Assembly (NCBI GenBank): GCA_949130485.1
Contig: OX422191.1
Span: 5,581,754-5,645,753, forward strand
Length of the DNA: 64,000 nucleotides
Reading direction: 5' to 3'
DNA from: Agelas oroides
Lineage: Eukaryota; Porifera; Demospongiae; Agelasida; Agelasidae
In this document: one piece after another, positions 1 to 64,000 of the stretch
Numbering within the stretch: the first letter of the stretch is position 1
Layout of the letters: every line of letters starts with the position of its first letter
The notes under the pieces: model-generated
Database searches by the model: none
What the model was told of the DNA's origin: nothing
What the model saw: only the letters and a program-made list of their open reading frames with translations
Translations under genes and position numbers: made by a program

Positions 1-1142
1 GATCTTCTCTCCCACTTAAACAGGCCTGTATGTGCTTCACAGTACCCAATCGGGAGGTTAAAACGGCGTTATCAAGTCTTTCCGCACATAAACAGGCTTA
101 CATGAGCCTCACAGGACCTCCACAGTGGTAAAAACTGCTTTCTCGACCGTCCCTGGCACTTAAACAGGCCTACACGTGCTTCATAGCATTTCCTCGGAGG
201 TTAAAACGGCGTTATCTGGTCTTTCTCGCACATTTGCAGGCATGCACGAGCATCACAGGACTTCAACAGTGGTGAAAACATCTTTCGCGATCGTCTACGG
301 CACTTAAACAAGCCTACACGTGCTTCATAGCACGCCCTCGGAGGTTAAAACGGCGTTATCAAGTCTTTGCAGCACATAAACAAGCTTGCACCAACCTCAC
401 AGGGCATCCACAGAGTTAAAAACTGCTTTCTCGATTTTCCGTGACACTTAAACAGGCCTGTACGTGCTTCAGAGTACCCCATCGGAGGTTAAAACGGCGT
501 TATCATGTCTTTCCGCACATAATCAGGCTTACATGAGCCTCACAGTACCTCCACAGTGGTAAAAACTGCTTTCTCGACCGTCCCTGGCACTTAAACAGGC
601 CTACACGTGCTTCATAGCACGCACTCGGAGGTGAAAACGGCGTTATCAGGTCTTTTCCGCACATAAACAGACTTGCACCAACATCACAGGGGAACCACAA
701 CAGTGCAAACTGCTTTCTCGATCGTCCCTGGCACTTAATCAGGCGTCCATGTGCTTCACAGCACCCCCTCCGAGGTTAAAACGGTGGTATCAGGCCTTTC
801 CCGCACATAAACAAGCTTGCACCAAACTCACAGGGCTTCCACAGCGATAAAAACTGCTTTCTCGATCTTCTCTGACACTTAAACAGGCCTGTACGTGCTT
901 CACAGTACCCCATCAGAGGTTAAATCGGCGTTATCAGGTATTTCTCGCACATAAACAGGCATGCACGAGCATCACAGGACTTCAACAGAGGTGAAAACTG
1001 CTTTCTCGATCGTCTATGGCTCTTAAACAGGCCTACAGGAGCTTCACAGCACCTACTCAAACGATAAAACGGCGTTATCATGTCTTTTTAGCACATAAAC
1101 AAGCTTACACCAACCTCACAAGGATTCCACGGAGGTAAAAGC

Positions 1143-4100
1143 TGCTTTCTCGATCTTCTCTTCCACTTAAACAGGCCTGTATGTGCTTCACAGTACCCAA
1201 TCGGAGGTTAAAACGGCGTTATCATGCCTTTCCGCACATAAACAGGCTTACATGTGCCTCACAGGACCTCTACAGTTGTAAAAACTGCTTCCTCGACCGT
1301 CCCTGGCACTTAAACAGGCCTACACGTGCTTCATAGCATCTCCTCGGAGGTTAAAACGGCGTTATCTGGTCTTTCTCGCACATTTGCAGGCATGCACGAG
1401 CATCACAGGACTTCAACAGTGGTGAAAACTTCTTTCACGTTCGTCTACACCTCATAAACAGGCCTACACGTGCTTCATAGCACGCCCTCTGAGGTTAAAA
1501 CGGCGTTATCAGGTCTTTTCAGCACATAAACAAGCTTGCACCAACCTCACAGGGCATCCACAGAGTTAAAAACTGCTTTCTCGATTTTCTGTGACACTTA
1601 AACAGGCCTGTACGTGCTTCAGAGTACCCCATTGGAGGTTAAAACGGCGTTATCATGTCTTTCCGCACATAAACAGGCTTACATGAGCCTCACAGGACCT
1701 CCACAGTGGTAAAAACTGCTTTCTCGACCGTCCCTGGCACTTAAACAGGCCTACACGTGCTTCATAGCACGCCCTCGGAGGTTAAAACGGCGTTATCAGG
1801 TCTTTTCCGCACATAAACAGACTTACAACAACATCACTGGGGATCCACAACAGTGCAAACTGCTTTCTCGATCGTCCCTGGCACTTAATCAGGCGTCCTT
1901 GTGCTTCACAGCACCCCCTCCGAGGTTAAAACGGTGGTATCAGGCCTTTCCCGCACATAAACAAGCTTGCACCAAACTCACAGGGATTCCACAGCGGTAA
2001 TAACTGCTTTTTCGATCTTCTCTTCCACTTAAACAGGCCTGTACGTGCTTCACAGTACCCCATCGGAGGTTAAATCGGCGTTATCAGGTCTTTCTCGCAC
2101 ATAAACAGGCATGCACGAGCATCACAGGACTTCAACAGAGGTGAAAACTGCTTTCTCGATTGTCTATGGCTCTTAAACAGGCCTACACGTGCTTCATAGC
2201 ACGCCTTCGGTGGTTAAAACGGCGTTATCAGCTCTTTTCCGCACATAAACAGGCTTGCACTAACCTCACAGGGCTTCCACAGTGGTGAAAACTGCTTTCT
2301 CGATCGTCCCTGGCACTTAAACCTACTTGCACATGCTTCACAGTACCCCCTCGGAGGTTAAAACGACGTTATCAGGTCTTTCTCGCACATAAACAGGCTT
2401 GCACGAGCATCACAGGGCTTCAACAGTGGTGAAAACTGCTTTCTCGATCGCCTATGGGTCCTAAACAGGCCTACACGTGTTTCATAGCACGACCTCGGAG
2501 GTTAAAATCGGCGTTATCAGGTCTTTTCCGCACACAAACAGGCTTGCACTAACCTCACAGGGCCTCCACAGTCGTGAAAACTGCTTTCTCGATCTTCTCT
2601 GCCACTTAAAGCAGACTGTACGTGCTTCACAGCACCTCCTCGGAGGTTAAAAAGGCGTTATCATGTCTTTTCAGCACATAAACAAGCTTGCACCAACCTC
2701 ACAAGGCTTCCACAGAGGTAAAATTTGCTTTCTCGATCTTCTCTTCCACTTAAACAGGCCTGTATGTGCTTCACAGTACCCAATCGGAGGTTAAAACGGC
2801 GTTATCATGCCTTTCCGCACATAAACAGGCTTACATGAGCCTCACAGGACCTCTACAGTTGTAAAAACTGCTTCCTCGACCGTCCCTGGCACTTAAACAG
2901 GCCTACACGTGCTTCATAGCATCTCCTCGGAGGTTAAAACGGCGTTATCTGGTCTTTCTCGCACATTTGCAGGCATGCACGAGCATCACAGGACTTCAAC
3001 AGTGGTGAAAACTTCTTTCGCGATCGTCTACGGCTCTTAAACAGGCCTACACGTGCTTCATAGCACGCCCTCTGAGGTTAAACGGCGTTATCAGGTCTTT
3101 TCAGCACATAAACAAGCTTGCACCAACCTCACAGGGCATCCACAGAGTTAAAAACTGCTTTCTTGATTTTCTGTGACACTTAAACAGGCCTGTACGTGCT
3201 TCAGAGTTCCCCATTGGAGGTTAAAACGGCGTTATCATGTCTTTCCGCACATAATCAGGCTTACATGAGCCTCACAGGACCTCCACAGTGGTAAAAACTG
3301 CTTTCTCGACCGTCCCTGGCACTTAAACAGGCCTACACGTGCTTCATAGCACACCCTCGGAGGTTAAAACGGCGTTATCAGGTCTTTTCCGCACATAAAC
3401 AGACTTGCAACAGCATCACAGGGGATCCACAACAGTGCAAACTGCTTTCTCGATCGTCCCTGGCACTTAATCAGGCGTCCATGTGCTTCACAGCACCCCC
3501 TCCGAGGTTAAAACGGTGGTATCAGGCCTTTCCCGCACATAAACAAGCTTGCACCAAACTCACAGGGATTCCACAGCGGTAATAACTGCTTTTTCGATCT
3601 TCTCTTCCACTTAAACAGGCCTGTACGTGCTTCACAGTACCCCATCGGAGGTTAAATCGGCGTTATCAGGTCTTTCTCGCACATAAACAGGCATGCACGA
3701 GCATCACAGGACTTCAACAGAGGTGAAAACTGCTTTCTCGATTGTCTATGGCTCTTGAACAGGCCTACACGTGCTTCATAGCACGCCTTCGGTGGTTAAA
3801 ACGGCGTTATCAGCTCTTTTCCGCACATAAACAGGCTTGCACTAACCTCACAGGGCTTCCACAGTGGTGAAAACTGCTTTCTCGATCGTCCCTTGCACTT
3901 AAACCTACCTGCACATGCTTCACAGTACCCCATCGGAGGTTAAAACGACGTTATCAGGTCTTTCTCGCACATAAACAGGCTTGCACGAGCATCACACGGC
4001 TTCAACAGTGGTGAAAACTGCTTTCTCGATCGCCTATGGGTCCTAAACAGGCTTACACGTGTTTCATAGCACGACCTCGGAAGTTAAAAACGGCGTTATC

Positions 4101-4308
4101 AGGTCATTCTCACGCAGAAACAGGCATGCACGAGCATCAAAGGACTTCAACAGTGGTGAAAACTGCTTTCTCGATCGTCTATGGCTCTTAAACAGGCCTA
4201 TACGTGCTTCACAGCACCAACTCAAACGATAAAACGGAGTTATCAGGTCTTTTCAGCACATAAACAAGCTTACACCAACCTCACAGGGCTTCCACAGCGG
4301 TAAAAACT
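1143..4308 (+). repeat. Higher-order repeat of about 1583 bp (11 monomers), two copies
   Basis: The segment from 1143 recurs from 2726, a shift of 1583 bp or about 11 monomers. The two copies share private variants: TGCAGG replacing AAACAGG in one monomer (1385 and 2968), the TTGTAAAAACTGCTTCCTCG variant (1274 and 2857), and CGCCTATGGGTCCTAAACAGG (2450 and 4033). The second copy becomes less alike after about 4.1 kb. The first 1.1 kb of the window belongs to the same set, with a shift of 1151 bp. Confidence 0.8.
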
Positions 4309-5786
4309 GCTTTCTCGATCTTCTCTGCCACTTAAACAATCCTGTACGTGCTTCACAGTACCCCATCGGAGGTTAAATCGGCGTTATCAGGTCTTTCTCG
4401 CACATAAACAGGCATGCACGAGCATCACAGGGCTTCCACAGAGGTAAAAACTGCTTTCTCGATTTTCTGTGACACTTAAACAGGCCTGTACGTGCTTCAG
4501 AGTACCACATCGGAGGTTAAAACGGCGTTATCATGTCTTTCCGCACATAATCAGGCTTACATGAGCCTCACAGGACCTCCACAGTGGTAAAAACTGCTTT
4601 CTCGACCGTCCCTGGCACTTAAACAGGCCTACACGTGCTTTATAGCACTCCCTCGGAGGTTAAAACGGCGTTATCAGGTCTTTTTCGAACATAAACAGAC
4701 TTGCACCAACATCACAGGGCATCCACAACAGTGCAAACTGCTTTCTCGATCGTCCCTGGCACTTAATCAGGCGTCGATGTGCTTCACAGCACCCCCTCCG
4801 AGGCTAAAACGGTGATATTAGGCCTTTCCCGCACATAAACAGGCATGCACGAGCATCACAGGACTTCAACAGTCGTCAAAACTGCTTTCTCGATCTTCTC
4901 AGCCACTTAAAGAAGCCTGTACGTGCTTCACAGCACCTCCTCGGAGGTTAAAACGGCGTTATTAAGTCCTTTCATCACATAAACAAGCTTGCACCAACAC
5001 CACAGGTCATCCACAGCGGTCAAAACTGTTTTCTCGATCTTCTCTGCCATTTAAACAATCCTGTACGTGCTTCACATTACCCCATCGGAGGTTAAAACGG
5101 CGTTATCATGTCTTTTCCGCACATAAACCGGCTTACATGAGCCTCACAGGACCTCCACGGTGGTAAACACTGCTTTCTCGACCGTCCCTAGGACTTAAAC
5201 AGGCCTACACGTGCTTAAAAGCATCTCCTCGGAGGTTAAAACGGCGTTAGCATTTCTTTCTCACACATATACAGGCTTGTACGAGCATCACAGGACTTCA
5301 ACAGTGGTGAAAACTGCTTTCTCGATCGTCTATGGCACTTAAACAGGCCTACACGAGCTTCAACGAACCTACTCAGACTTTAAAACGGCGTTATCAGGTC
5401 TTTTCCGCACATAAACAGGCTTGCACGAGCCTCACAGGACTGCCACAGTGGGGAAAACTGCTTTCTCGACCGTCCCTGGCACTTAATCAGGCGTCCATGT
5501 GCTTCACAGCAACCCCTCCGAATTTAAAACGGTGGTATCAGGCATTTCCCGCACATAAACAAGATTGCACAAACCTTCCACAGCGGTAAAAACTGCTTTC
5601 TCGATCTTCTATGCCACTTAAACAAGCCTGTACGTGCTTCACAGCACCTCCTCGGAGGTTAAAACGGCGTTATCAGGTTTTTTAGCACATAAACAAGCTT
5701 GCACCAACCTCACAGGGCTTCCAAAGCGGTCAAACTTCTTTCTCTGCCACTTAAACAGGCCTGTACGTGCTTCGCAGTACCACATC

Positions 5787-5911
5787 GGAGGTTAAAACGG
5801 CGTTATCATGTCTTTTCCGCATATAAACAGGCTGACATGAGCCTGACAGGACCTCCACAGTGAAGTCCTGTTTATGTGCGGAAAAGATATGATAACGCCG
5901 TTTTAACCTCC
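5787..5911. repeat. Micro-inversion in the array making an inverted repeat
   Basis: At about 5864-5911 a single piece of roughly 48 bp of monomer is written in the opposite orientation inside the forward array. It reads TTTATGTGCGGAAAAGA then ATAACGCCGTTTTAACCTCC. It faces the forward copy at 5787-5831, giving two arms of about 45 bp with a spacer of about 35 bp. The forward array resumes at once with TTGAGCCTCACAGGACCTCC. It is the only local orientation flip I found in the left array. Confidence 0.9.
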
Positions 5912-8900
5912 TTGAGCCTCACAGGACCTCCGGAGTGGTAAACACTGCTTTCTCGACCGTCCCTGGCACTTAAACAGGCCTACACGTGCTTCAAAGCATC
6001 TTCTCGCAGGTTAAAACGGCGTTATCCGTTCTTTCTCGCACATATACCGGCTTGCACGAGCATCAAAGGACTTCAACAGTGGTGAAAACTGCTTTCTCGA
6101 TCGTCTATGGCACTCAAACAGGCCTACACGTGCTTCACAGCACCTACTCAAACTTTAAAATGGCGTTATCAGGTCTTTCTCGCACATAAACAGACTTACA
6201 CCAACCTCACAGGGCTTCCACAGCGGTTGAAAACTGCTTTCTCGATCTTCTCTGCCACTTAAACAGGCCTGTACGTGCTTCACAGTACCCCATCGGAGGT
6301 TAAAACGGCGTTATCATGTCTTTTCAGCACATAAACAGGCTTACATGAGCCTCAGAGGACCTCTACAGTGGTGAAAACTGCTTTCTCGACCGTCCCTGGC
6401 ACTTAAACTGGCCTACACGTGCTTGAAAGCATCTCCTCGGAGGTTAAAACGGCGTTATCAGGTCTTTTCCGCACATAAACAAGCTTGCACGAGCCTCACA
6501 GGACCGTCAGACTCTCAGTGGGGTAAACTGCTTTAATGACCGTTCCCGGCACTTAAACAGGCCTACACGTTCTTCACAGCACCTCCTGGGGGGTTCAAAC
6601 GGTGTTATCAGGTCTTTCCCGCACATAAACAGGCTTGAACCAACCACACAGGGTCTCCACAGCAGTGAAAACTGCTTTCTCGATCTTCTCTGGTACATAA
6701 ACAGGCCTGCACGTGCTTCACAGTACCCCATCGGAGGTTAAAACGGCGTTATCACGTCTTTTGCGCACATAAACAGGCTTCCATGAGCCTCACAGGACCA
6801 CCACAGTGGTGAAAACTGCTTTCTCGACCGTCCCTGGCACTTAAACAGGCCTACACGTGCTTCAAAGCATCTCCACGGAGGTTAAAACGGTGTTATCAGG
6901 TCTTTCCTGAAATTAAACAGGCTTGAACCAAGCACACAGGGCCTCCACAGCAGTGAAAACTGCTTTCTCGATCTTCTCTGGCACAAAAAACAGGCCTGCA
7001 TGTGTTTCACAGTGCCTAATTGGAGGTTAAAACGGTGTTATCAGGTCTTTTCCGCACATAAACAGGCTTGCACTAACCTCACAGGGCTTCCACAGTGGTG
7101 AAAACTGCTTTCTCGATCTTCTCTGGCACTTAAACAGGCCTGCAAGTGCATCACAGTACCCACTCGGATGTTAAAACGGCATTATCAGGTCTTTTCCGCA
7201 CATAAACAGGCTTGCACGAGCTTCACAGGACCGCCACAGTGGGGAAAACTGCTTTCTCGATCGTCCCTGGCACTTAAACAGGCCTACACGTGCTTCAAAG
7301 CATCTCCACGGAGGTTAAAACGGTGTTATCAGGTCTTTCCTGCAATTAAACAGGCTTGAACCAAGCACACAGGGCTTCCACAGCATTGAAAACTGCTTTC
7401 TCGATCTTCTCTGGCACAAAAAACAGGCCTGCAAGTGCATCACAGTACCCACTCGGATGTTAAAACGGCGTTATCAGGTCTTTTCCGCACATAAACAGGC
7501 TTGCACGAGCCTCACAGGACTGCCACAGTGGGGAAAACTGCTTTCTCGATCGTCCCTGGCACATAATCAGGCGTCCATGTGCTTCACAGCAACCCCTCCG
7601 AGGTTAAAACGGTGGTAGAAGGCCTTTCCCGCACATACACAAGCTTGCACAGACCTTCCACAGCGGACAAAACTGCTTTCTCGATCTTCTCTGCAACTTA
7701 AAGAAGCCTGTACGTGCTTCACAGCACCTCCTCGGAGGTTAAAACGGCGTTATCAGGTCTTTCTCGCACATAGACAAGCTTGCACCAACCTCACAGGGCT
7801 TCCACAGCGGTCAAAACAGCTTTCTCGATCTTCTCTGCCACTTAAACAGGTCTGTACGTGCTTCACAGTACCCCATCGGAGGTGAAAACGGCGTTAGCAT
7901 GTCTTTTCCGCACATAAAAAAAGGCTTACATGAACCTCGCAGGACCTACAAAGTGGTGAAAACTGCTTTCTCGACCGTCCCTGGCACTTAAACAGGCCTA
8001 CACGTGCTTCAAAGCATCTCCTCGGAGGTTAAAACGGCGTTATCATGTCTTTCTCGCGCATAAACAGGCTTTCACGAGCATCACAGGACGTCAACAGTGG
8101 TGAAAACTGCTTTCTCGATCGTCTATGGCACTTAAACAGGCCTACACGTGCTTCATAGCAGGCCCTCGGTGGTTTAAACGGCTCTTTTCCGCACATAAAC
8201 AGGCTTGCACTAACCTCACAGGGCTTCGACAGTGGTGAAAACTGCTTTCTCGATCTTCTCTGGCACTTAAACAGGCCTGCTAGTGCATCACAGTACCCAC
8301 TTGGATGTTAAAACGGCGGTATCAGGCCTTTCCCGCACATAAACAAGCATGCACCAAACTCACAGGGCTTCAACAGCGGTCAAAACTGCTTTCCCGATCT
8401 TCTCTGCTACTTAAAGAAGCCTGTACGTGTTTAACAGCACCTCTTCGGAGGTTAAAACGGGGTTGTCAGCTCCTTTCAGAACATAAACAAGCTTGCACCA
8501 AACTCACAGGGCTCCCACAGCGGTCAAAACTGCTTTCTCGATCTTCTGTGCCAGTTAAACAGGCCTGTACATGCTTCACAGTACCCAAACGAATGTTAAA
8601 ACGGCGTTATCATGTCTTTTCCGCACATAAGCAGGCTTACATGAGCCTCACAGGACCTGCACAGAGGTGAAAACTGCTTTCTCGACCGTCCCTGGCACTT
8701 AAACAGGCCTACACGTGCTTCAAAGCATCTCCTCGGAGGTTAAAACGGCCTTTTCAGGTCTTTCTCGCACATAAACATGATTGCACGAGCATCACAGGAC
8801 TTCAACAGTGGTGAAAACCGCTTTCTCGATCGTCCCTGGCACTGAAAGATGCATCCACGTGCTTCACCGTAGCACCTAGGTGGTTAAAACGGCGTTATCA

Positions 8901-11579
8901 GGTCTTTCTCGCACCTAAACAGGCTTGCACTAAGCACACAGGTCTTCCACAGTGGTGAAAACTGCTTTATCGATCTTCTCTGGCACTTAAACTGGCCTGC
9001 AAGTGCATCACAGATCTCATCGGAGGATAAAACGGCGTTATCATGTTATTATTGCACTTAAGCAGGCTTACATGAGCCTCACAGGACCTCCACAGTGGTG
9101 AAAACTGCTTTTTCGACCGTCCCTAGCACTTAAACAGGCCTACACGTGCTTCAAAGCATCTCCACGGAGGTTAAAACGGCGTTATCAGGTCTTTCTCGCA
9201 CATAAACATGCTTGCACTAAGCTCACAGGGCTTCCACAGTGGTGAAAACTGCTTGCACGATTTTCTCTGGCACTTAAACAGGCCTGCAAGTGCATCACAG
9301 TACCCCATCGGAGGATAAAACGGCGTTATCATGTTATTATCGCACTTAAACAGGCTTACATGAGCCTCACAGGACCTCCACAGTGGTGAAAACTGCTTTT
9401 TCGTCCGTCCATAGCACTTAAACAGGTCTACACGTGCTTAAAAGCATCTCCTTGGAGGTTAAAACGGCGTTATCAGGTCTTTCTCGCACATAAACAGGCT
9501 AGCACTAAGCTCACAGGGCTTCCACAGTGGTGAAAACCGCTTTCTCGATCTCCTCTGGCACTTAAACAGGCCTGCAAGTACATCACAGTACCCACTCGGA
9601 TGTTAAAAAGGCTTTTATCAGGTCTTTTCCGCACATAAACAGGCTTACACGAGCCTCACAGGACCGAAACAGTGGGGAAAACTGCTTTCTCGATCGTCCC
9701 TGGCACTTAATCAGGCGTCCATGTGCTTCACAGCACCCACTTAGAGGCTAAAACGGTGGTATCAGCCCTTTCCCCCACATAAACAAGCTTGCACCAAATT
9801 CACAGGGATTCCACAGCGGTCAAAACTGCTTTCTCGATCTTCTCTGCTACTTAAAGAAGCCTGTACGTGCTTTACAGCACTGCCTCGGAGATTAAAACGG
9901 CGTTATCAGGTCTTTTCAGCACATAAACAAACTTGCACCAACCTCACAGGGCTTCAACAGCGGTCAAAACTGCTTTCTCGATCTTCTCTGTCACTTAAAC
10001 AGGCCTGTACGTGCTTCACAGCATCTACTCAGACGATAAAACGGCGTTATCAGGTCTTTTCCGCACATAAACAGGTTTGCACCAAACTCACAGGGCTTCC
10101 ACAGCGGTCAAAATTGCTTTCGCGATCTTCTCTGCCACTTAAAGAAGCCTGTACGTGCTACACAGCACCGCCGCGGAGGTTAAAACGGCGTTATCAGGTC
10201 TTTTCCGCACATAAACAAGCTTGCACCAACCTCAGAGGGCTTCCACAGCGGTCAAAACTGCTTTCTCGATCTTCTCTGGCACTTAAACAGGCCTGTACGT
10301 GCTTCACAGCACCTACTCAAACGATAAACCGGCGTTATCAGGTCTTTTCCGCACATAAACAAGCTTGTACCAACCTCACAGGGCTTCCACAGCGGTCAAA
10401 ACTGCTTTCTCGATCTTCTCTGGCACTTAAACAGGCCTGTACGTGCTTCACAGCACCTACTCAAACGATAAAACGGCGTTATCAGGTCTTTTCCGCACAT
10501 AAACCGGCTTGCACCAACCTCACAGGGCTTCCACAGCGGTCAAACCTTTCTGGATCTTCTCTGCCGCCTGTACGTGCTTCACAGTACACCATCGCAGTTT
10601 AAAACGGCGTTATCATCTGATTTACGCACATAAACCGGCTTACATGAGTCTCACAGGACCTCCACAGTGGTGAAAACTGCTTTCTTGTCCGTCCCTGGCA
10701 CTTAAACGGGCTTACAGGTGCTTCAAAGCATTTCCTCGGAGGTTAAAACGGCGCTTTCAGGTCTTTCTTGCACATAAACAGGCTTGCACGAGCATCCCAG
10801 GACTTTAACAGTGGTGAAAACTGCTTTCTCGATTGTCTATGGCACTTAAACAGGCCAACACGTGCTTCATAGCACGCCCTCGGAGGTTAAAACGGCGTTA
10901 TCAGGTCTTTTCCGCACATAAACAGGCTTGAACCAACCACACAGGGTCTCCACAGCAATGAAAACTGCTTTCTCGATTTTCTCTGCCACATAAACAAGCC
11001 TGCACGTACTTCACAGTACCTCATCGTAGGTTGAAACGGTGTTATCAGGTCTCTTCCGCACATAAACAGGCTTGCACTAACCTTACAGGGCTTCCACAGC
11101 GGTCAAAACTGCTTGTCAATCTTCTCTGCCACATAAACATGCCTATAGGATCTTCACAGTACCTCATCGTAGGTTAAAACGGTGTTATCAAGTCTTTTCC
11201 GCACATAAACAAGCTTGCACGGACCTCACAGGACCGCCACAGTGGGGAAAACTGCTTTCACGACCGTTCCTGACACTTAAACAGGCCTACACGTGCTTCA
11301 CAGCACCCCCTCCTAGGTTAAAATGGTTGTATCAGGCCTTTCCCGAAAATTAACAAGCTTGCACCAACCGCACAGGGCTTCCACAGCGGTCAAAACTGCT
11401 TTCTCGATCTTCTCTGCCACTTAAACAAGCCTGCACGTGCTTCACAGTACATCATAGTACGTTAAAACGGTGTTATCAGGTCATTTACGCACATAAACAG
11501 GCTTGCACTAACCTTATAGGGCTTCCACAGTGGTGAAAACTGCTTTCTCGATCTTCTCTGGCACTTAAACAGGCCTGCA

Positions 11580-22643: not shown

Positions 22644-22675
<32 letters not shown>

Positions 22676-41700: not shown

Positions 41701-42844
41701 TTAACGCCGTTTTAACCTCCGAGGGCGTGCTATGAAGCACGTGTAGGCCTGTTTAAGTGCCAGGGACTGTCGAGAAAGCAGTTTTTACCACTGTGGAGGT
41801 CCTGTGAGGCTCATGTAAGCCTGTTTATGTGCGGAAAAGACATGATAACGCCGTTTTAACCTCCGATGGGGTACTGTGAAACACGTACAGGCCTGTTTAA
41901 GGGGCAGAGAAGATCGAGAAAGCAGTTTTTACCGCTGTGGAAGCCCTGTGAGTGTGGTTCAAGCTTGTTTATGTGCGGTAAAGGCCTGATACCATCGTTT
42001 TAAACGCGGAGCGGGTGCTGTGAAGCACATGGACGCCTGATTAAGTGCCAGGGACGATCGAGAAAGCAGTTTGCACTGTCGTTGATGCCCTGTGATATTG
42101 GTGCAAGTCTGTTTATGTGCGGAAAAGACCTGATAACGCCGTTTTAACCTCCGAGGGCGTGCTCTGAAGAACGTGTAGGCCTGTTTAAGTGCCAGGGACG
42201 GTCGAGAAAGCAGTTTTTACCACTGTGGAGGTCCTGTGAGGCTCATGCAAGCCTGTTTATGTGCGGAAAAGACATGATAACGCCGATTTAACCTCCGATG
42301 GGGTACTGTGAAACACGTACATGCCTGTTTAAGGGGCAGAGAAGATCGAGAAAGCAGTTTTTACCGCTGTGGAAGCCCTGTGAGTTTGGTGCAAGCTTGT
42401 TTATGTGCGGTAAAGGCCTGATACCACCGTTTTAAACTCGGAGCGGGTGCTGTGAAGCACATGGACGCCTGATTAAGTGCCAGGGACGATCGAGAAAGCA
42501 GTTTGCACTGTCGTTGATGCCCTGTGATGTTGGTGCAAGTCTGTTTATGTGCGGAAAAGACCTGATAACGCCGTTTTAACCTCCGAGGGCGTGCTATGAA
42601 GAACGTGTAGGCCTGTTTAAGTGCCAGGGACGGTCGAGAAAGCAGTTTTTACCACTGTGGAGGTCCTGTGAGGCTAATGCAAGCCTGTTTATGTGCGGAA
42701 AGACATGATAACGCCGATTTAACCTCCGATGGGGTAATGTGAAGCACATGCAGGCCTGTTTAAGTAGCAGAGAAGATCGAGAAAGCAGTTTTTACCGCTG
42801 TAAAAGCCCTGTGAGTTTGGTGCAAGGTTGTTTATGTGTGGGAA

Positions 42845-49865: not shown

Positions 49866-52800
49866 CCACGGAGTGGGTGCTGTTAAGCACATGTGGGCCT
49901 GTTTAAGTGCCAGGGACGGTCGAGAAAGCAGTTTTTACCACTGTGGAGGTCCTGTGAGGCTCATGTAGGCCTGTTTAAGTGCGGAAAGACATGATAACGC
50001 CGTTCTAACCTCCGATGAGGTACTGTGAAGCACGTACAGTTCTCTTTAAGCAGCACAGAAAATCGAGAAAGCAGTTTTTACCTCTGTGGAAGCCCAGAGA
50101 GGTTGGTGCAAGCTTGTTTACGTGTTGAAAAGACTTGATGACGCCGTTTTAACCTGCGAGGGCGTGCTATGAAGCGCGTGTAGGCCTGTTTAAGAGCCGT
50201 AGACGGTCGAGAAAGAAGATTTCACCACTGTTGAGTCCTGTGATGCTCTTGCATGCCTGTCTATGTGCGAGAAAGACCTTATAACGCTGATTTAACCGCC
50301 GAGGAGATGCTTTGAAGCACGTGTAGGCCTGTTTAAGTGCCAGGGACGGTCGAGAAAGCAGTTTTTATCACTGTGGAGGTCCTGTGAGGCTCATGCAAGC
50401 CTGTTTATGTGCGGAAAAGACATGATAACGCCGATTTAACCTCCGATGGGGTACTGTGAAGCACGTACAAGCCTGTTTAAGTGGCAGAGAAGATCGAGAA
50501 AGCAGTTTTTACGTCTGTGGAAGCCCAGTGAGTTTGGTGCAATGTTGTTTATGTGTGGGAAAGGCCTGATACCACCGTTTTAACCTCGGAGGGGGTGCTG
50601 TGAAGCACATGGACGCCTGATTAAGTGCCAGGGACGATCGAGAAAGCAGTTTGCACTGTTGTGGATGCCCTGTGATGTTGGTGCAAGTCTGTTTCTGTGC
50701 GGAAAAGACCTGATAACGCCGTTTTTACCTCCGATGGCGTGTTATGAAGCACGTGTATGCCTTTTTAAGTGCAAGGGACGGTCGAGAAAGCAGTTTTTAC
50801 TACTGTAGAGGTGCTGTGAGGCTCATATAAGCCTGTTTATCTGCGGAAAAGACATGATAACGCCGATTTAACCTCCGATGGGGTACTGTGAAACACGTAC
50901 AAGTCTGTTTAAGTGGCAGAGAAGATCGAGAAAGCAGTTTTGAATGCTGTAGAAGCAGTTATGACCGCTGTGGGAACCCTGTGAGTTTGGTGCAAGCATG
51001 TTTATGTGCGGGAAAGGCCTGATACGACCGTTTTAACCACGGAGGGGGTGCTGTGAAGCACGTGTAGGCCTGTTTAAGTGCCAGGGACGGTCGAGAAAGC
51101 AGTTTTTACCACTGTGGAGGTCCTGTGAGGTTCGTGTAAGCCTGTTTAAGTTCGGAAAAACATGATAACGCCGTTCTAACCTCCGATGGGGTACTGTGAA
51201 GCACGTATAGGCCTCTTTACGTAGCACAGAAAATCTAGAAAGCAGTTTCTACCTCTGTGGATGCCCTGTGAGGTTGGTGCAATCTTGTTTATGTGCTGAA
51301 AAGACCTGATAACGCCGTTTTAACCTCCGAGGGCGTGCTATGAAGCACGTGTAGGCCTGTTTAAGAGCCGTAGACGGTCGATAAAGAAGTTTTCACCACT
51401 GTTGAAGTCCTGTGATTCTCGTGCATGCCTGTTTATGTGCGAGAAAGACCAGATAACGCCGTTTTAACCACCGAGGAGATGCTTTGAAGCACGTGTAGGC
51501 CTATTTAAGTGCCAGGGACGGTCGAGAAAGCAGTTTTTTGCCACTGTGGAGGTCCTTTGAAGCTCATTTAAGCCTGTTTATGAGCGGAAAGACATGATAA
51601 CGCCGTTCTAACCTCCGATGGGGTACTGTGAAGCACGTACCAGCCTGTTTAAGTAGCACAGAATATCGAGAAAGCAGTTTTTACCTCTGTGGAAGCCCTG
51701 TGAGTTTGGTGCAAGCTTGTTTATGTGCTGAAAAGACCTGATAACGCCGTTTTAACCTCCGAGGAGGTGCTGTGAAGCACGGACAGGCTTCTTTAAGTCG
51801 CAGAGAAGAACGAGAAAGCGGTTTTCATCACTGTGGAGGCTATGTGGGGTTAGTGCAAGCCTGTTTTATGTTCGGAAAAGACCTGATAACGCCGATTTTA
51901 ACCGCCGAGGTCGTGCTATGAAGCACGTGTAGGGCTGTTTAGGACCCATGGACGATCCCGAAAGCAGTTTTCACCACTGTTGAAGTCCTATGATGCTCGT
52001 GCAAGCCTGTTTATGTGCGAGAAAGACCATATAACGCCGTTTTAACCTCCTTGGGGATGCTTTGAAGCACGTGTAGGCCTGTTTAAGTGCCAGGGACGGT
52101 CGAGAAAGCTGTTTTTACCACTGTGGAGGTCCTGTGAGGCTCATGCAAGCCTGTTTATGTGCGGAAAAGACATGATAACGCCGATTTAACCTCCGATGGG
52201 GTACTGTGAAACACGTACAGGCCTGTTTAAGTGGAAGAGAAGATCGAGAAAGCAGTTTTTACGTCTGTGGAAGCCCTGTGAGGTTGGTGCAAACATGTTT
52301 AGGTGCTGAAAAGACCTGATAACGCCGTTTTAACCTCCGAGGGCGTGCTATGAAACACATGTAGGCCTGTTTAAGAGACGTAGACGGTCGAGAAAGAAGT
52401 TTTCACCACTGTTGAAGTCCTGTTATACTCGTGCATGCCTGTTTATGTGCGAGAAAGACTTGATAACGCCGTTTTAACCTCCGAGGAGATGCTTTGAAGC
52501 ACGTGTAGGCCTGTTTAAGAGCCAGGGAAGGTCCAGAAAGCAGTTTTTACCACTGTGGAGGTCCTGTGAGGCTCATGCAAGCCTGTTTATGTGCGAGAAA
52601 GGCCTGATACGACCGTTTTAACCACGGAGGGGGTGCTATGAAGCACATGTAGGCCTGTTTAAGAGCCGTAGACGGTCGAGAAAGAAGTTTTCACCTCTGT
52701 TGAAGTCCTGTGATGCTCGTGCATGCCTGTTTATGTGTGAGAATGACCTGATAACGCCGTTTTAACCTCCGAGGAGATTCTTTGAAGCACGTGTAGGCCT

Positions 52801-55800
52801 GTTTAAGTGCCATAGACGAGCGAGAAATCAGTTTTCGCCTCTGTTGAAGTCTTGTGATGCTCTTGCATGCCTGTTTATGTGCGAGAAAGACTTTATAACG
52901 CCGTTTTAACCTCATTGGAAATGCTTTGAAGCACGTTTAGGCCTGTTTAAGTGCCAGGGACGGTCGAGAAAGCAGTTTTTACCACTGTGGAGGTCCTGTG
53001 AGGCTCATGCAAGCCTGATTATGTGCGAGAAAGGCCTGATACGACCGTTTTAACCACGGAGGGGGTGCTGTGAAGCACATGTAGGCCTGTTTAAGAGCCG
53101 TAGACGGTCGAGAAAGAAGTTTTCACCTCTGTTGAAGTCCTGTGATGCTCGTGCATGCCTGTTTATGTGTGAGAATGACCTGATAACGCCGTTTTAACCT
53201 CCGAGGAGATGCTTTGAAGCACGTGTAGGCCTGTTTAAGTGCCATAGACGAGCGAGAAATCAGTTTTCGCCTCTGTTGAAGTCTTGTGATGCTCTTGCAT
53301 GCCTGTTTATGTGCGAGAAAGACTTTATAACGCCGTTTTAACCTCATTGGAAATGCTTTGAAGCACGTTTAGGCCTGTTTAAGTGCCAGGGACGGTCGAG
53401 AAAGCAGTTTTTACCACAGTGGAGGTCCTGTGAGGCTCATGTAAGCCTGATTATGTGCGGAAAGACATGATAACGCCGTTGTAACCTCCGATGGGGTACT
53501 CTGAAGCACGTACAGGCATGTTTAAGTATCACAGAAAATCGAGAAAGCAGTTTTTACCTCTGTGGAAGCCCTGTGAGGTTGGTGCAAGCTTGTTTATATG
53601 CTGAAAAGACCTGTTAACGCCGTTTTAATCTCCGAGGAGATGCTTTGAATCACGTGTAGGCCTGTTTAAGTGCCATAGACGATCGAGAAAGCAGTTTTCG
53701 CCACTGTTGAAGTCCTGTGATGCTCTTGCATGCCTGTTTATGTGCGAGAAAGACCTTATAACGCCGTTTTAACCTCCTTGGAGATGCTTTGAAGCACGTG
53801 TAGGCCTGTTTAAGTGCCAGGGACGGTCGAGAAAGCAGTTTTTACCACTGTGGAGGTCCTGTGAGGCTCATGCAAGCCTGTTTATGTGCGGAAAAGACAT
53901 GATAACGCCGATTTAACCTCCGATGGGGTACTGTGAAACACGTACACGCCTGTTTAAGTGGCAGAGAAGATCGAGAAAGCAGTTTTTACGTCTGTGGAAG
54001 CCCTGTGAGGTTGGTGCAAACTTGTTTATGTGCCGATAAGAGCTGATAACTCCGTTTTAACCTCCGAGGGCGTGTTATGAAACACATGTAGGCCTGTTTA
54101 AGAGACGTAGACGGTCGAGAAAGAAGTTTTCACCACTGTTGAAGTCCTGTGATACTCGTGCATGCCTGTTTATGTGCGAGAAAGACTTGATAACGCCGTT
54201 TTAACCTCCGAGGAGATGCTTTGAAGCACGTGTAGTCTTGTTTATGTGCCAGGGACGGTCGAGAAAGCAGTTTTTACCACTGTGGAGGTCCTGTGAGGCT
54301 CATGCAAGCCTGTTTATGTGCGAGAAAGGCCTGATACGACCGTTTTAACCACGGAGGGGGTGCTGTGAAGCACGTGTAGGCCTGTTTAAGAGCCGTAGAC
54401 GGTCGAGAAAAAAGTTTTCACCACTGTTGAAGTCCTGTGATGCTCGTGCATGCCTGTTTATTTGTGAGAATGACCTGATAACGCCGTTTTAACCTCCGAG
54501 GGCGTGCTATTAAGCACGTATAGGCCTGTTTAAGAGCCGTAGACGATCGAGAAAGAAGTTTTCACCACTGTTGAAGTCCTGTGATGCTCGTGCATGCCTG
54601 CATATGTGCGTAAAAGACCAGATAACGCCGTTTTAACCTCCGAGGAGATGCTATGAAGCACGTGTAGGCCTGTGAGACTCATGTAAGCCTGTTTATGTGC
54701 GGAAAAGACATGATAACGCCGATTTAACCTCCGATGGGGTACTGTGAAGCACGTAGAAGCCTGTTTAAGTGGCTGGAAAGATCGAGAAAGCAGTTTTTAC
54801 CGCTGTGGAAGCCCGGTGAGTTTGGTGCAAGCTTGTTTATGTGCGGGAAAGGCCTGATACCACTGTTTTAACCACGGAGGGGGTGCTGTGAAGCACGTGC
54901 AGGCCTGTTTAAGTGCCAGGGACGGTCGAGAAAGCAGTTTTTACCACTGTGGAGGTCCTGTGAGGTTCATGTAAGCCTGTTTATGTGCGGAAAGACATGA
55001 TAACGCCGTTCTAACCTCCGATGGGGTACTGTGAAGCACGTACAGGCCTGTTTAAGTAGCACAGAATATCGAGAAAGCAGTTTTTACCTCTGTGGAAGCC
55101 CTGTGGGGTTTGTGCAATCCTGTTTATGTGCGGAAAAGACCTGATAACGCCGATTTTAACCGCCGAGATCGTGCTATGAAGCACGTGTAGGCCTGTGTAC
55201 GACCGATGGACGATCGAGAAAGCAGTTGTCACCACTGTTGAAGTCCTGTGATGCTCGTGCAAGCCTGTTTATGAGCGAGAAAGACCTGATAACGCCGTTT
55301 TAACCTCGGATGGGGTACTGTGATGCACGTGCAGGTAGGGTTAAGTGCCAGGGACGATCGAGGAAGCAATTTACACCGTTGTGGATGCCCTGTGAGGTTG
55401 GTGCAAGTCTGTTTAAGTGCGGAAAAGAGCTGATAACGCCGTTTTAACTTCCGAGGAGATGCTTTGAAGCACGTGTAGGCCTGTTTAAGTGCCATAGACG
55501 ATCGGGAAAGGAGTTTTCACCACTGTTGAAGTCCTGTGATGCTCGTGCATGCCTGTTTATGTGCGAGAAAGACCTTATAACACCGTTTTAACCACCGAGG
55601 ACATGCTTTGAAGAACGTGTAGGCCTGTTTGAGAGCCAGGGACAGTCGAGAAAGCAGATTTTACCACTGAGGAAGCCCTGTGAGGTTAGTGCAAGCCTGC
55701 TTATGTGCGTAAAAGGCCAGATATCACCGTTTTAACTTCGCAGGGGGTGCTGTGAAGCACATGGACGCCTGATTAAGTGCCATGGACGATCGTGAAAGCA

Positions 55801-57729
55801 GTTTTCACTGTTGTGGATGCCCTGTGATGTTGGTGCAAGACCTGATAACACCGTTTTAACCTCCGAGGAGGTACTGTGAAGCACGTACAGGCTTCTTTAA
55901 GTGGCAGAGAAGAACCAGAAAGCGGTTTACATCACTGTGGAGGCCCTGTTGGGTTAGTGCATGCCTGTTTATGTGCGGAAAAGACCTGATAACGCCGATT
56001 TTATCCGCCGAGGTCGTGCTATGAAGCACGTGTAGGCCTGTTTAGGACACATGGACGATCGAGAAAGCAGTTTTCACCACTGTTGAAGTCCTGTGATGCT
56101 CGTGCAAGCCTGTTTATGTGCGAGAAAGACCTGATAACGCCGTTTTAACCTCGGAGGGAGTACTGTGAAGCATGTGCAGGTAGGTTTAAGTGCCAGGGAC
56201 GATCGAGAAAGAAATTTTCACCGTTGTGGATGCCCTGTGAGGTTGGTGCAAGTCTGTTTATGTGCTGAAAAAGCTGATAACGCCATTTTAACCTCCGAGG
56301 GCGTGCTATGAAGCACGTGTAGGCCTGTTTAAGAGCCGTAGACGATCGAGAAAGGAGTTTTCACCACTGTTGAAGTCCTGTGATGCTCGTGCATGCCTGC
56401 ATATGTGCGAGAAAGACCAGATAACGCCGTTTTAACCTCCGAGGAGATGCTATGAAGCACGTGCAGGCCTGTTTAACTGCCAGGGACGCTCGAGAAAGCA
56501 GTTTATACCACTGTGGAGGTTCTGCGAGGCTCATGTAAGCCTGTTTATGTGCGGAAAAGACATGATAACGCATATTTAACCTCCGAAGGGGTACTGTGAA
56601 GAACGTAGTAGCCTGTTTAAGTGGCAGAGAGATCGAGAAAGCAGTTTTGACCGCTGTGGAAACCCTGTGAGTATGGTGCAAGCTTGTTTAAGTGCGGGAA
56701 AGGCCTGATACCACTGTTTTAACCACGGAGGGGGTGCTGTGAAGCACGTGTAGGCCTGTGTAAGTGCCAGGGACGGTCGAGAAAGCAGTTTATACCACTG
56801 TGGAGGTGCTGTGAGGGTCATGTAAGCCTGTTTATGTGCGGAAAGACATGATAACGCCGATTTAACCTCCGATGGGGTACAGTGAAGCACGTACAGGCCT
56901 GTGTAAGTAGCACAGAATATCGAGAATGCAGTTTTTACTTCTGTGGAAGCCCTGTGAGTTTGGTGCAAGCTTGTTTATGTGCTGATAAGACCTGATAACG
57001 CCGTTTTAACCTCCGAGGATGTGCTGTGAAGCACGTACAGGCTTCTTTAAGTGGCAGAGAAGAACGAGAAAGCGGTTTTCATCACTATGGAGGCCCTATG
57101 GGGTTAGTGTATGCTTGTTTATGTGCGGAAAAGACCTGATAACGCCGATTTTAACCGCCGAGGTCGTGCTATGAAGCACGTATAGGCCTGTTTAGCACAC
57201 ATGGACGATCGAGAAAGCAGTTTTCACCACTGTTGAAGTCCTGTGATACTCGTGCAAGTCTGTTTATGTGCGGAAAAGACCTGATAACGACGTTTTAACC
57301 TCCGAGGGCGTGTTATGAAGCACGTGTAGGCCTGTTTAAGTGCCAGGGACTGTCGAGAAAGCAGTTTTCACCACTGTGGAGGTCCTGTGAGCTTCATGCA
57401 AGCCTGTTTATGTGCGGAAAGACATGATAACGCCGATTTAACCTCCGATGGCGTACTGTGAAGCACGTACAGACCTGTTTAAGTGGCAGAGAAGATCGAG
57501 AAAGTAGTTTTTACCGCTGTAGAAGCCCTGTGAGTTTGGTGCAAGGTTGTTTATGTGTGGGAAAGGCCTGATACCACCGCTTTAACCTCGGAGCGGGTAC
57601 TGTGAAACACGTACAAGCCTGTTTAAGTTGCAGAGAAGATCGAGAAAGCAGTTTTGACCGCTGTAGAAGCCCTGTGAGTTTGGTGCAAGCTTGTTTATGT
57701 GTGGGAAAGGCCTGATACGACCGTTTTAA
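49866..57729 (-). repeat. Large higher-order unit, copy B (about 7.86 kb)
   Basis: It corresponds to copy A with two extra trimers. One is visible as a direct tandem duplication: 52691-52915 and 53123-53347 are 432 bp apart and differ at about one base (52777 T against 53209 G). From 49.87 to about 51.0 kb it matches copy C with a shift of 7864 bp almost perfectly. Confidence 0.9.
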
Positions 57730-60700
57730 CCACGGAGTGGGTGCTGTTAAGCACATGTGGGCCTGTTTAAGTGCCAGGGACGGTCGAGAAAGCAGTTTTT
57801 ACCACTGTGGAGGTCCTGTGAGGCTCATGTAGGCCTGTTTAAGTGCGGAAAGACATGATAACGCCGTTCTAACCTCCGATGAGGTACTGTGAAGCACGTA
57901 CAGTTCTCTTTAAGCAGCACAGAAAATCGAGAAAGCAGTTTTTACCTCTGTGGAAGCCCAGAGAGGTTGGTGCAAGCTTGTTTACGTGTTGAAAAGACTT
58001 GATGACGCCGTTTTAACCTGCGAGGGCGTGCTATGAAGCGCGTGTAGGCCTGTTTAAGAGCCGTAGACGGTCGAGAAAGAAGATTTCACCACTGTTGAGT
58101 CCTGTGATGCTCTTGCATGCCTGTCTATGTGCGAGAAAGACCTTATAACGCTGATTTAACCGCCGAGGAGATGCTTTGAAGCACGTGTAGGCCTGTTTAA
58201 GTGCCAGGGACGGTCGAGAAAGCAGTTTTTATCACTGTGGAGGTCCTGTGAGGCTCATGCAAGCCTGTTTATGTGCGGAAAAGACATGATAACGCCGATT
58301 TAACCTCCGATGGGGTACTGTGAAGCACGTACAAGCCTGTTTAAGTGGCAGAGAAGATCGAGAAAGCAGTTTTTACGTCTGTGGAAGCCCAGTGAGTTTG
58401 GTGCAATGTTGTTTATGTGTGGGAAAGGCCTGATACCACCGTTTTAACCTCGGAGGGGGTGCTGTGAAGCACATGGACGCCTGATTAAGTGCCAGGGACG
58501 ATCGAGAAAGCAGTTTGCACTGTTGTGGATGCCCTGTGATGTTGGTGCAAGTCTGTTTCTGTGCGGAAAAGACCTGATAACGCCGTTTTTACCTCCGATG
58601 GCGTGTTATGAAGCACGTGTATGCCTTTTTAAGTGCAAGGGACGGTCGAGAAAGCAGTTTTTACTACTGTAGAGGTGCTGTGAGGCTCATATAAGCCTGT
58701 TTATTTGCGGAAAAGACATGATAACGCCGATTTAACCTCCGATGGGGTACTGTGAAACACGTACAAGTCTGTTTAAGTGGCAGAGAAGATCGAGAAAGCA
58801 GTTTTGAATGCTGTAGAAGCAGTTATGACCGCTGTGGGAACCCTGTGAGTTTGGTGCAAGCATGTTTATGTGCGGGAAAGGCCTGATACGACCGTTTTAA
58901 CCACGGAGGGGGTGCTGTGAAGCACGTGTAGGCCTGTTTAAGTGCCAGGGACGGTCGAGAAAGCAGTTTTTATCACTGTGGAGGTCCTGTGAGGCTCATG
59001 CAAGCCTGTTTATGTGCGGAAAAGACATGATAACGCCGATTTAACCTCCGATGGGGTACTGTGAAGCACGTACAAGCCTGTTTAAGTGGCAGAGAAGATC
59101 GAGAAAGCAGTTTTTACGTCTGTGGAAGCCCAGTGAGTTTGGTGCAATGTTGTTTATGTGTGGGAAAGGCCTGATACCACCGTTTTAACCTCGGAGGGGG
59201 TGCTGTGAAGCACATAGACGCCTGATTAAGTGCCAGGGACGATCGAGAAAGCAGTTTGCACTGTTGTGGATGCCCTGTGATGTTGGTGCAAGTCTGTTTC
59301 TGTGCGGAAAAGACCTGATAACGCCGTTTTTACCTCCGATGGCGTGTTATGAAGCACGTGTATGCCTTTTTAAGTGCAAGGGACGGTCGAGAAAGCAGTT
59401 TTTACTACTGTAGAGGTGCTGTGAGGCTCATATAAGCCTGTTTATCTGCGGAAAAGACATGATAACGCCGATTTAACCTCCGATGGGGTACTGTGAAACA
59501 CGTACAAGTCTGTTTAAGTGGCAGAGAAGATCGAGAAAGCAGTTTTGAATGCTGTAGAAGCAGTTATGACCGCTGTGGGAACCCTGTGAGTTTGGTGCAA
59601 GCATGTTTATGTGCGGGAAAGGCCTGATACGACCGTTTTAACCACGGAGGGGGTGCTGTGAAGCACGTGTAGGCCTGTTTAAGTGCCAGGGACGGTCGAG
59701 AAAGCAGTTTTTACCACTGTGGAGGTCCTGTGAGGTTCGTGTAAGCCTGTTTAAGTTCGGAAAAACATGATAACGCCGTTCTAACCTCCGATGGGGTACT
59801 GTGAAGCACGTATAGGCCTCTTTACGTAGCACAGAAAATCTAGAAAGCAGTTTCTACCTCTGTGGATGCACTGTGAGGTTGGTGCAAGCTTGTTTATGTG
59901 CTGAAAAGACCTGATAACGCCGTTTTAACCTCCGAGGGCGTGCTATGAAGCACGTTTAGGCCTGTTTAAGAGCCGTAGACGGTCGATAAAGAAGTTTTCA
60001 CCACTGTTGAAGTCCTGTGATTCTCGTGCATGCCTGTTTATGTGCGAGAAAGACCAGATAACGCCGTTTTAACCACCGAGGAGATGCTTTGAAGCACGTG
60101 TAGGCCTGTTTAAGTGCCAGGGACGGTCGAGAAAGCATTTTTTTACCACTGTGGAGGTCCTTTGAAGCTCATTTAAGCCTGTTTATGAGCGGAAAGACAT
60201 GATAACGCCGTTCTAACCTCCGATGGGGTACTGTGAAGCACGTACCAGCCTGTTTAAGTAGCACAGAATATCGAGAAAGCAGTTTTTACCTCTGTGGAAG
60301 CCCTGTGAGTTTGGTGCAAGCTTGTTTATGTGCTGAAAAGACCTGATAACGCCGTTTTAACCTCCGAGGAGGTGCTGTGAAGCACGGACAGGCTTCTTTA
60401 AGTCGCAGAGAAGAACGAGAAAGCGGTTTTCATCACTGTGGAGGCTATGTGGGGTTAGTGCAAGCCTGTTTTATGTTCGGAAAAGACCTGATAACGCCGA
60501 TTTTAACCGCCGAGATTGTGCTATGAAGCACGTGTAGGCCTGTTTAGGACCCATGGACGATCGAGAAAGCAGTTTTCGCCACTGTTGAAGTCCTGTAATG
60601 CTCTTGCATGTTTGTTTATGTGCGAGAAAGACCTTATAACGCCGTTTTAACCTCCTTGGAGATGCTTTGAAGCACGTGTAGACCTGTTTAAGTGCCAGGG

Positions 60701-63700
60701 ACGGTCTAGAAAGCTGTTTTTACCACTGTGGAGGTCCTGTGAGGCTCATGCAAGCCTGTTTATGTGCGGAAAAGACATGATAACGCCGATTTAACCTCCG
60801 ATGGGGTACTGTGAAACACGTACAGGCCTGTTTAAGTGGAAGAGAAGATCGAGAAAGCAGTTTTTACGTCTGTGGAAGCCATGTGAGGTTGGTGCAAACT
60901 TGTTTATGTGCTGAAAAGACTTGATAACGCCGTTTTAACCTCCGAGGGCGTGCTATGAAACACATTTAGGCCTGTTTAAGAGACGTAGACGGTCGAGAAA
61001 GAAGTTTTCACCACTGTTGAAGTCCTGTGATACTCGTGCATGCCTGTTTATGTGCGAGAAAGACTTGATAACGCCGTTTTAACCTCCGAGGAGATGCTTT
61101 GAAGGACGTGTAAGCCTGTTTAAGTGCCAGGGACGGTCGAGAAAGCAGTTTTTACCACTGTGGAGTTCCTGTGAGGCTCATGCAAGCCTGTTTATGTGCG
61201 AGAAAGGCCTGATACGACCGTTTTAACCACGGAGGGGGTGCTGTGAAGCACGTGTAGGCCTGTTTAAGAGCCGTAGACGGTCGAGAAAGAAGTTTTCACC
61301 ACTGTTGAAGTCCTGTGATGCTCATGCATGCCTGTTTATTTGTGAGAATGACCTGATAACGCCGTTTTAACCTCCGAGGAGATGCTTTGAAGCACGTGTA
61401 GGCCTGTTTTAGTGCCATAGACGATCGAGAAAGCAGTTTTCGCCACTGTTGAAGTCCTGTGATACTTTTGCATGCCTGTTTATGTGTGAGAAAGACCTTA
61501 TAACGCCGTTTTAACCTCCTTGGAAATGCTTTGAAGCACGTGTAGGCCTGTTTAAGTGCAAGGGTTGGTCGAGAAAGCAGTTTTTACCACTGTGGAGGTC
61601 CTGTGAGGCTCATGTAAGCCTGATTATGTGCGGAAAGACATGATAACGCCGTTGTAACCTCCGAAGGGGTACTCTGAAGCACGTACAAGCCTGTTTAAGT
61701 GTCACAGAAAATCGAGAAAGCAGTTTTTACCTTTGTGGAAGCCCTGTGAGGTTGGTGCAAGCTTGTTTATGTGCTGAAAAGACCTGATAACGCCGTTTTA
61801 ATCTCCGAGGAGATGCTTTGAAGCACGTGTAGGCCTGTTTAAGTGCCATAGACGATCGAGAAAGCAGTTTTCGCCATTGTTGAAGTCCTGTGATGCTCTT
61901 GCATGTCTGTTTATGTGCGAGAAAGACCTTATAACGCCGTTTTAACCTCCTTGGAGATGCTTTGAAGCACGTGTAGGCCTGTTTAAGTGCCAGGGACGGT
62001 CGAGAAAGCAGTTTTTACCACTATGGAGGTCCTGTGAGGCTCATGCAAGCCTGTTTATGTGCGGAAAAGACATGATAACGCCGATTTAACCTCCGATGGG
62101 GTGCTGTGAATCACGTATAGGCCTGTTTAAGTGGCAGTGAAGATCGAGAAAGCAGTTTTTACGTCTGTGGAAGCCCTGTGAGGTTGGTGCAAAATTGTTT
62201 ATGTGCTGAAAAGACCTGATAACGCCGTTTTAACCTCCGAGGGCGTGCTATGAAACACATGTAGGCCGGTTTAAGAGACGTACACGGTCGAGAAAGTAGT
62301 TTGCACCACTGTTGAAGTCCTGTGATACTCGTGCATGCCTGTTTATGTGCGAGAAAAACTTGATAACGCCGTTTTAACCTCCGAGGAGATGCTTTGAAGC
62401 ACGTGTAGGCCTGTGTAAGTGCGAGGGACGGTCGAGAAAGAAGTTTTTACCACTGTGGAGGTCCTGTGAGGCTCATGCAAGCCTGCTTATGTGCGAGAAA
62501 GGCCAGATACGACCGTTTTAACCACGGAGGGGGTGCTATGAAGCTCGTATAGGCCTGTTTAAGAGCCTTAAACTATCGAGAAAGGAGTTTTCACCACTGT
62601 TGAAGTCCTGTGATGCTCGTGCATGCCTGCATATGTGCGAGAGAGACCAGATAACGCCGTTTTAACCTCCGTGGAGATGCTATGAATCACGTGTAGGCCT
62701 GTTTAAGTGGCAGGGACGGTCGATAAAGCAATTTATACCACAGTGGAGGTGCTGTGAGACTCATGTAAGCCTGTTTATGTGCGGAAAAGACATGATAACG
62801 CCGATTTAACCTCCGATGGGGTACTGTGAAGCACGTACAAGCCTGTTTAAGTGGCAGAGAAGATCGAGAAAGCAGTTTTTACCGCTGTGGAAGCCCTGTG
62901 AATTTGGTGCAAGATTGTTTATGTGCGGGAAAGGCCTGATACCACTGTTTTAACCACGGAGGGGGTGCTGTGAAGCACGTGCAGGCCTGTTTATGTGCCA
63001 GGGACGGTCGAGAAAGCAGTTTTTACCACTGTGGAGGTCCTGTGAGGTTCATGTAAGCCTGTTTATGTGCGGAAATACATGATAACGCCGTTCTAACCTC
63101 CGATGGGGTACTGTGAAGCACGTGCAGGCCTGTTTAAGTATCACAGAATATCGAGAAAGCAGTTTTTACCTCTGTGGAAGCCCTGTGAGTTTGGTGCAAG
63201 CTTGTTTATGTGCTGAAAAGACCTGATAGCGCCGTTTTAACCTCCGAGGAGGTGCTGTGAAGCACGTACAGTCTTCTTTAAGTGGCAGAGAAGAACGAGA
63301 AAGCGGTTTTCATCACTGTGGAGGCCCGATGGGGTTAGTGCAATCCTGTTTATGTGCGGAAAAGTCCTGATAACGCCGATTTTAACCGCCGAGGTCGTGC
63401 TATGAAGCACGTGTAGTCCTGTGTACGACCCATGGACGATCGAGAAAGCAGTTTTCACCACTGTTGAAGTCCTGTGATGCCCGTGCAAGCCTGTTTATGA
63501 GCGAGAAAGACCTGATAACGCCGTTTTAACCTCGGAGGGGGTACTGTGATGCATGTGCAGGTAGGTTTAAGTGCCAGGGACGATCGAGAAAGCAAGTGAC
63601 ACCGTTGAGGATGCCCTGTGAGGTTGGTGCAAGTCTGTTTATGTGCGGAAAAGAGCTGATAACACCGTTTTAACTTCCGAGGAGATGCTTTGAAGCAAGT

Positions 63701-64000
63701 CTGTTTGTGTGTGGAAAAGAGGTGATAACGCCGTTTTAACTTCCGAGGAGATGCTTTGAAGCACGTGTATGCCTGTTTAAGTGCCATAGACGATCGAGAA
63801 AGGAGTTTTCAACACTGTTGAAGTCCTGTGATGCTCGTGCATGCCTGTTTATGTGCGAGAAAGACCTGATAACGCCGTTTTAACCTCCGAGGACCTGCTT
63901 TGAACCACGTGTAGGCCTGTTTGAGAGCCAGGGACAGTCGCGAAAGCATTTTATACCACTGTGGAAGCCCTGTGAGGTTCATGTAAGCCTGTTTATGTGC
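57730..64000 (-). repeat. Large higher-order unit, copy C (incomplete at the window end)
   Basis: The first part matches copy B closely. An extra tandem piece of 741 bp (58201-58941 repeated at 58942-59682) raises the shift from copy B to 8605 bp until about 60.5 kb. After that the match drops; for example 63237-63488 is recognisably related to 55011-55262 but with many substitutions. Confidence 0.85.

Follow-up and report, generated by a model that had tools for sequence, protein, structure and literature searches.

The 144-bp satellite found in a 64,000-nucleotide stretch of the sponge Agelas oroides (the window; C9:5581754-5645753) is a diverged dimer of a 72-bp unit, and it is probably a regional satellite that is associated with the centromere, either within it or directly beside it, and that grew stepwise from this unit. 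The contig C9 measures 9.56 Mb in a genome of 259.3 Mb (141 contigs), and 255 kb of it (5.40-5.655 Mb) were read directly. Satellite runs start there at about 5.430 Mb and pattern matches extend to 5.773 Mb. As shown in Table 1, the original prediction of a satellite running over positions 1-64000 stands for three arrays, while the insert and the spacer between them are not satellite; a few short breaks interrupt the arrays as well. Using wrap-around alignment we decomposed the window into 418 monomer pieces, and TRF, monomer decomposition and run analysis agreed on a long head-to-tail tandem array, as is expected of a centromeric satellite. Four orientation changes between longer runs were noticed in the 255 kb of C9. 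One strand switch, at C9 5,501,331, is directly head-to-head and lies within a 2-kb inverted duplicate (C9:5498810-5503380).

Table 1. Satellite arrays, interruptions and recent duplications in the window
Feature	Position	Strand	Basis
144-bp satellite array, first part of plus-strand block	1..22257	+	monomer decomposition, runs, TRF
Recent tandem duplication, lag 839 bp, 98.8% over 1,466 bp	17431..19735	+	k-mer chain
Insert in satellite, DNA-transposon-like, long terminal inverted repeats, PHD-finger frame	22258..23441	.	repeat search, Pfam
144-bp satellite array, second part, without period three from about 24.3 kb on	23442..32511	+	
Spacer, left part: gene-like, SWIM zinc finger	32512..35563	+	Pfam, blastn
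Spacer, right part: opens with dispersed repeat	35564..38000	+	98-99% identity in many places
144-bp satellite array, reverse orientation	38001..64000	-	TRF, monomer decomposition
Recent tandem duplication, first copy, lag 7,864 bp, 99.96% over 5,003 bp	46106..51108	-	k-mer chain
Lag-7,864-bp duplication, second copy	53970..58972	-	k-mer chain

The two halves of the consensus monomer, half 1 (h1) and half 2 (h2), are identical at 49 of 72 positions without gaps, against a mean of 17.9 and a maximum of 36 in 2000 shuffles. Within single monomers (349 near-complete ones, kept out of the 418 window pieces) the halves were on average 57.8% identical (range 48.6-69.4%), so that the 45/72 (62.5%) counted by hand in the original prediction is an ordinary value for one monomer. 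When units with 24 or more gaps were excluded from the class strings, h1 and h2 alternated in 773 of 789 neighbour pairs of the window. Strict or nearly strict alternation was also observed in the sequence read from C5, C6, C9, C13, C15, C17 and C18, while the order of halves was looser on C1, C3 and C12, with strings such as 122 and 22; the samples from C1, C3, C12, C6, C15, C17 and C18 cover just 1-1.7 kb each. The mixed orders on C1, C3 and C12 are possible intermediates. On C3 and C12 units of the half-2 type are found next to one another, 72 bp apart (122 and the like), possibly a 216-bp three-unit form. Because 72 is a multiple of three, the unit could also be read as 24 codons and the array as a coding run of 24-residue repeats. 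The plus-strand window arrays hold 19 frames of at least 100 aa, where 20 Markov controls average 46.2, and the longest frame, 285 aa, falls within the control range of 172-363; on these frame counts we rejected the protein-coding reading, which has next to no chance of being right.

The claim that the monomer is an ancient dimer is strongly supported by the halves, which beat all shuffles, and is strengthened by the true 72-bp monomeric arrays, given a period of 72 by TRF, that occur in the sequence read from C8, C21 and C22. The C22 array surfaced by chance among multi-copy relatives of the spacer, and a pattern taken from it led to the other two. Alternation is absent among the units of these arrays, identities being nearly flat over the lags, and nearly all of the units are closest to a monomeric group of their own (m); the consensus 72-mers of five C8 families share 52-56 of 72 positions with h1 and 48-55 with h2. 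In an unrooted FastTree of 369 sampled 72-mers (143 h1, 140 h2 and 86 monomeric; 80 of 1301 from C9, 40 of 54 from C5 and further samples, after removal of duplicates and gappy units) each of the three kinds separated without error, the halves forming the two clades looked for, and the labels changed twice on the tree as compared to at least 153 times in 200 shuffles. Local support was 0.90 for h1 and 0.98 for h2, and only 0.48 for the monomeric group; in a tree of 13 consensus units the corresponding values were 95, 99 and, for m against h1 plus h2, 89. The h1 units of C1, C5, C9, C11 and C13 clustered together, and so did their h2 units; this grouping by half across chromosomes implies that the dimerisation predates the divergence of the chromosome versions. 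Near the 72-bp arrays a separate tandem repeat with a period of 186 bp (96% matches) lies at C21:4023589-4024249.

Regarding the direction of change, we infer that the 72-bp form would be older than the 144-bp form, on grounds of parsimony, of the position of m outside both halves in the unrooted tree and of its scattered agreement with h1 and h2. With no root in the tree and a support of only 0.48 for the m split, this order rests on parsimony. The same data allow the opposite order, in which the 144-bp dimer came first and the 72-bp arrays derive from it, through loss of a half or as an h1/h2 chimera, because h1, h2 and m form a tripod in an unrooted tree and the m split is weakly supported in the large one. 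However, simple loss of a half would place m inside h1 or h2, and m lies outside both; a simple chimera predicts one switch point, and we found that at positions which distinguish the halves m sides with h1 in some places and with h2 in others, with 8-12 switches in nine comparisons. Moreover, the consensus tree gives m a shorter inner branch (0.11) than the other two kinds (0.15 and 0.18). The tree position and the switch counts disfavour both half loss and a simple chimera, and we regard the reverse order as improbable.

Above the dimer the order is looser than had been proposed. Three monomer classes were said to form a 432-bp trimer; clustering of the 1301 C9 monomers with at least 100 aligned bases placed 1257 of them in four superclasses (454, 451, 203 and 149; 44 outside), and a tighter cut placed 1132 in eleven types (169 outside). 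Superclass identity at lag 3 on C9 was 0.404, compared to 0.320±0.013 in shuffled and 0.308±0.015 in order-1 Markov sequences. For the eleven types it was 0.264, near the Markov value of 0.241±0.018, suggesting that most of the period at the level of types follows from nearest-neighbour preference. The commonest three-letter words starting with type A on C9 were ABD (73), AGC (37), ACA (27) and AFE (26). Period three is clear in the window's minus-strand array, where lags 3, 6 and 9 are raised, but it was not seen at window 24.3-32.5 kb (lag 3 0.810 against 0.808±0.004 when permuted) nor in the 8-kb sample of C5, where lags 5, 6 and 10 are prominent instead. For the arrays of both strands TRF scored 288 bp above about 432 bp (13936 against 12468 and 13588 against 12904), and a three-monomer unit brings a small gain in identity, 83% against 80% for neighbouring monomers. 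A fixed 432-bp multimer through the array was rejected: the commonest type on C9 comes back at three monomers in 155 of 306 returns, and at 24.3-32.5 kb there is no such period. Thus a loose three-monomer tendency, with a lag-3 excess on C9, remains of the three classes alternating with period three, and the 432-bp rung is a local statistical tendency on C9 and no fixed unit.

The kilobase units that had been claimed at the top proved to be recent tandem duplications of differing lengths with no single fixed unit. Besides those of Table 1, C9 carries duplications outside the window with lags of 4,754 bp (99.92%), 2,444 bp (100%) and 2,875 bp (99.4%). The likeness between multimers exceeds that between neighbours, as in a higher-order repeat, with 98-100% for the kilobase duplicates and 80% for neighbouring monomers. 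Homogeneous bins lie at 5.51-5.54 and 5.63-5.64 Mb of C9, with a lesser one at 5.47 Mb, so the youngest copies have no one centre; the region holds many diverged monomers as well. Copies reaching 100% identity are the hardest case to assemble, and haplotypes left unmerged, or joins made repeatedly within near-identical repeats, could in principle have produced the kilobase units. Against such an assembly artefact stand the absence of any N in the 255 kb of C9, the differences at some bases between the longest pairs (the 2,444-bp pair excepted) and the overlap of several different lags, which leave it a slim chance.

We also characterized the sequences that interrupt the satellite. The insert at 22258-23441 has 110-nt inverted arms which are 93% complementary and outer 28-nt arms (86%), and its frame matches the PHD finger (PF00628, E 1.7e-07) at window 22861-23223; a possible ACCGTT target duplication was spotted by eye. 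The left part of the spacer matches SWIM (PF04434, E 3.6e-05) at window 34858-35475. Among the six protein frames compared with Pfam these were the two matches found, three others giving none and one a sub-threshold match only. The first 2.3 kb of the spacer recur on C18 (blastn, 92.9% over 1481 and 90.4% over 801 aligned bases), where the copy adjoins satellite at the same end with the satellite in opposite orientation, as would be expected of the end of a mobile element. Across the spacer (32512-38000, 5.5 kb) the satellite orientation flips. The dispersed repeat that opens its right part (window 35564-37500) starts with a run of A, and several copies lie within satellite on C11, C13 and C22; its right end is not fixed, as the six copies compared stop with their loci at about window 37.5 kb.

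To place the satellite in the genome, we searched for patterns derived from it. A 24-mer of its core gave 8922 matches with up to three mismatches, and none when reversed. The satellite was read directly on 15 of the contigs C1-C22 (C1, C2, C3, C5, C6, C8, C9, C11, C12, C13, C15, C17, C18, C21 and C22), and in five complete pattern searches all 153 matches fell in one cluster per contig, each of at most 0.4 Mb. C4, C7, C10, C14, C16, C19 and C20 had none among the matches listed, some of these lists being family-specific. The cluster midpoints, entered by hand, lie at 0.34-0.66 along the contig in 14 of the 15, C1 being the exception with 0.82, and their mean distance from the contig middle is smaller than under uniform placement (p 2e-05; 200,000 draws). 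Because the 15 contigs carry one cluster each, mid-chromosome on 14, we place the satellite close to the centromere, and the array is a candidate only for a site at or beside the kinetochore. C5 and C9 monomers are 79.8% alike as compared to 84.3% within the C5 sample, a sign of chromosome-wise homogenisation. Among the matches listed for C21, the exact 144-bp core occupies 4.178-4.202 Mb between 72-bp forms at 4.018-4.050 and 4.238-4.299 Mb, giving the order 72-144-72 with the simpler form on both flanks, while C9 has no single core.

The exception of C1, the seven contigs lacking a match among those listed and the absence of an exact CENP-B-box core speak against the centromere reading. The clusters could therefore be a heterochromatic satellite (a knob or outer pericentromere) with no kinetochore function, the centromere lying beside them or on other sequence. 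The interruption of the C9 region by inserts and four changes of orientation within 255 kb, its diverged monomers resembling relic layers and the seven of 22 large contigs with no listed match would fit such a satellite; a single cluster on each of 15 contigs, mid-chromosome on 14, argues against it, and on balance we hold it to be rather unlikely. For the centromere-associated satellite that we favour, the history would begin with a 72-bp array giving rise to two diverged variants, of which a two-unit segment would have multiplied and passed from chromosome to chromosome; multi-monomer and finally kilobase segments may then have been amplified through unequal exchange or replication-based copying. 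Growth would thus have proceeded by repeated local amplification with occasional transfer between chromosomes, and we infer the transfer, the kinetochore binding and the copying mechanism alike.

The four-level ladder of satellite growth originally drawn from the window is a fair picture, except that its first step is evidenced on other chromosomes and not by the window alone; against stepwise growth stand the weak and local period three and the youngest copies of C9, which do not lie at one centre. We tentatively suggest, as a view that could well turn out wrong, that one genome keeps the stages of growth side by side, from the 72-bp monomer through loosely mixed halves and the strict 144-bp dimer to words of several dimers and fresh duplications at the kilobase scale, and that relics of the 72-bp form lie on either side of a dimer core. 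If this is true, and the species is an early-branching animal, the primate-type expanding-centromere process also runs far outside the vertebrates. The passage from monomer to higher-order repeat has so far been inferred mostly from species comparison or decayed flanks, and here monomer, dimer and higher forms occur on different chromosomes of one assembly, so that one genome and a CENP-A map allow tests of which step followed which, in what direction the satellite passed between chromosomes and where the youngest growth lies. The satellite also supplies candidate centromere sequences for a sponge genome; among titles and abstract openings of the sponge, satellite and centromere literature we found no sponge satellite of such kind. 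We would expect a specialist to find the kind of satellite itself, which is already known, unsurprising, and the coexistence of stages in one genome to be the welcome part.

In alpha satellite a CENP-B box is present in one monomer type. We noticed no exact match to a CENP-B-box core in the 255-kb C9 region and five 72-bp loci, and the unit here is 72/144 bp, unlike the 171-bp alpha monomer. By unit length and CENP-B box the sponge satellite is no alpha satellite, yet it would work alike. It shares with primate alpha satellite a doubled unit and higher-order repeats, and its nearest precedent is that of New World monkeys, in which two diverged copies of the 171-bp repeat make up the 343-bp unit (PMC4053949). 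In contrast to the New World monkey case, a single genome here has both the short and the double form, and C21 and C22 each have the two within one cluster. In human centromeres older monomeric layers flank homogeneous cores (PMC9549924), and the sponge satellite resembles this expanding centromere in that one region holds homogeneous arrays together with diverged or monomeric ones and that groups of chromosomes have families in common; it differs on C9, where a single symmetric core is lacking and the stretch read contains several patches of homogeneous sequence and four changes of orientation. Finally, in the AB-dimer higher-order repeat of Sorghum, A and B monomers alternate and fall into two groups of the tree (PMC4053949). 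The sponge halves are likewise two alternating kinds of unit with separate groups in the tree, but within one monomer their identity is only about 58%, and above the dimer there are types with a preferred order.
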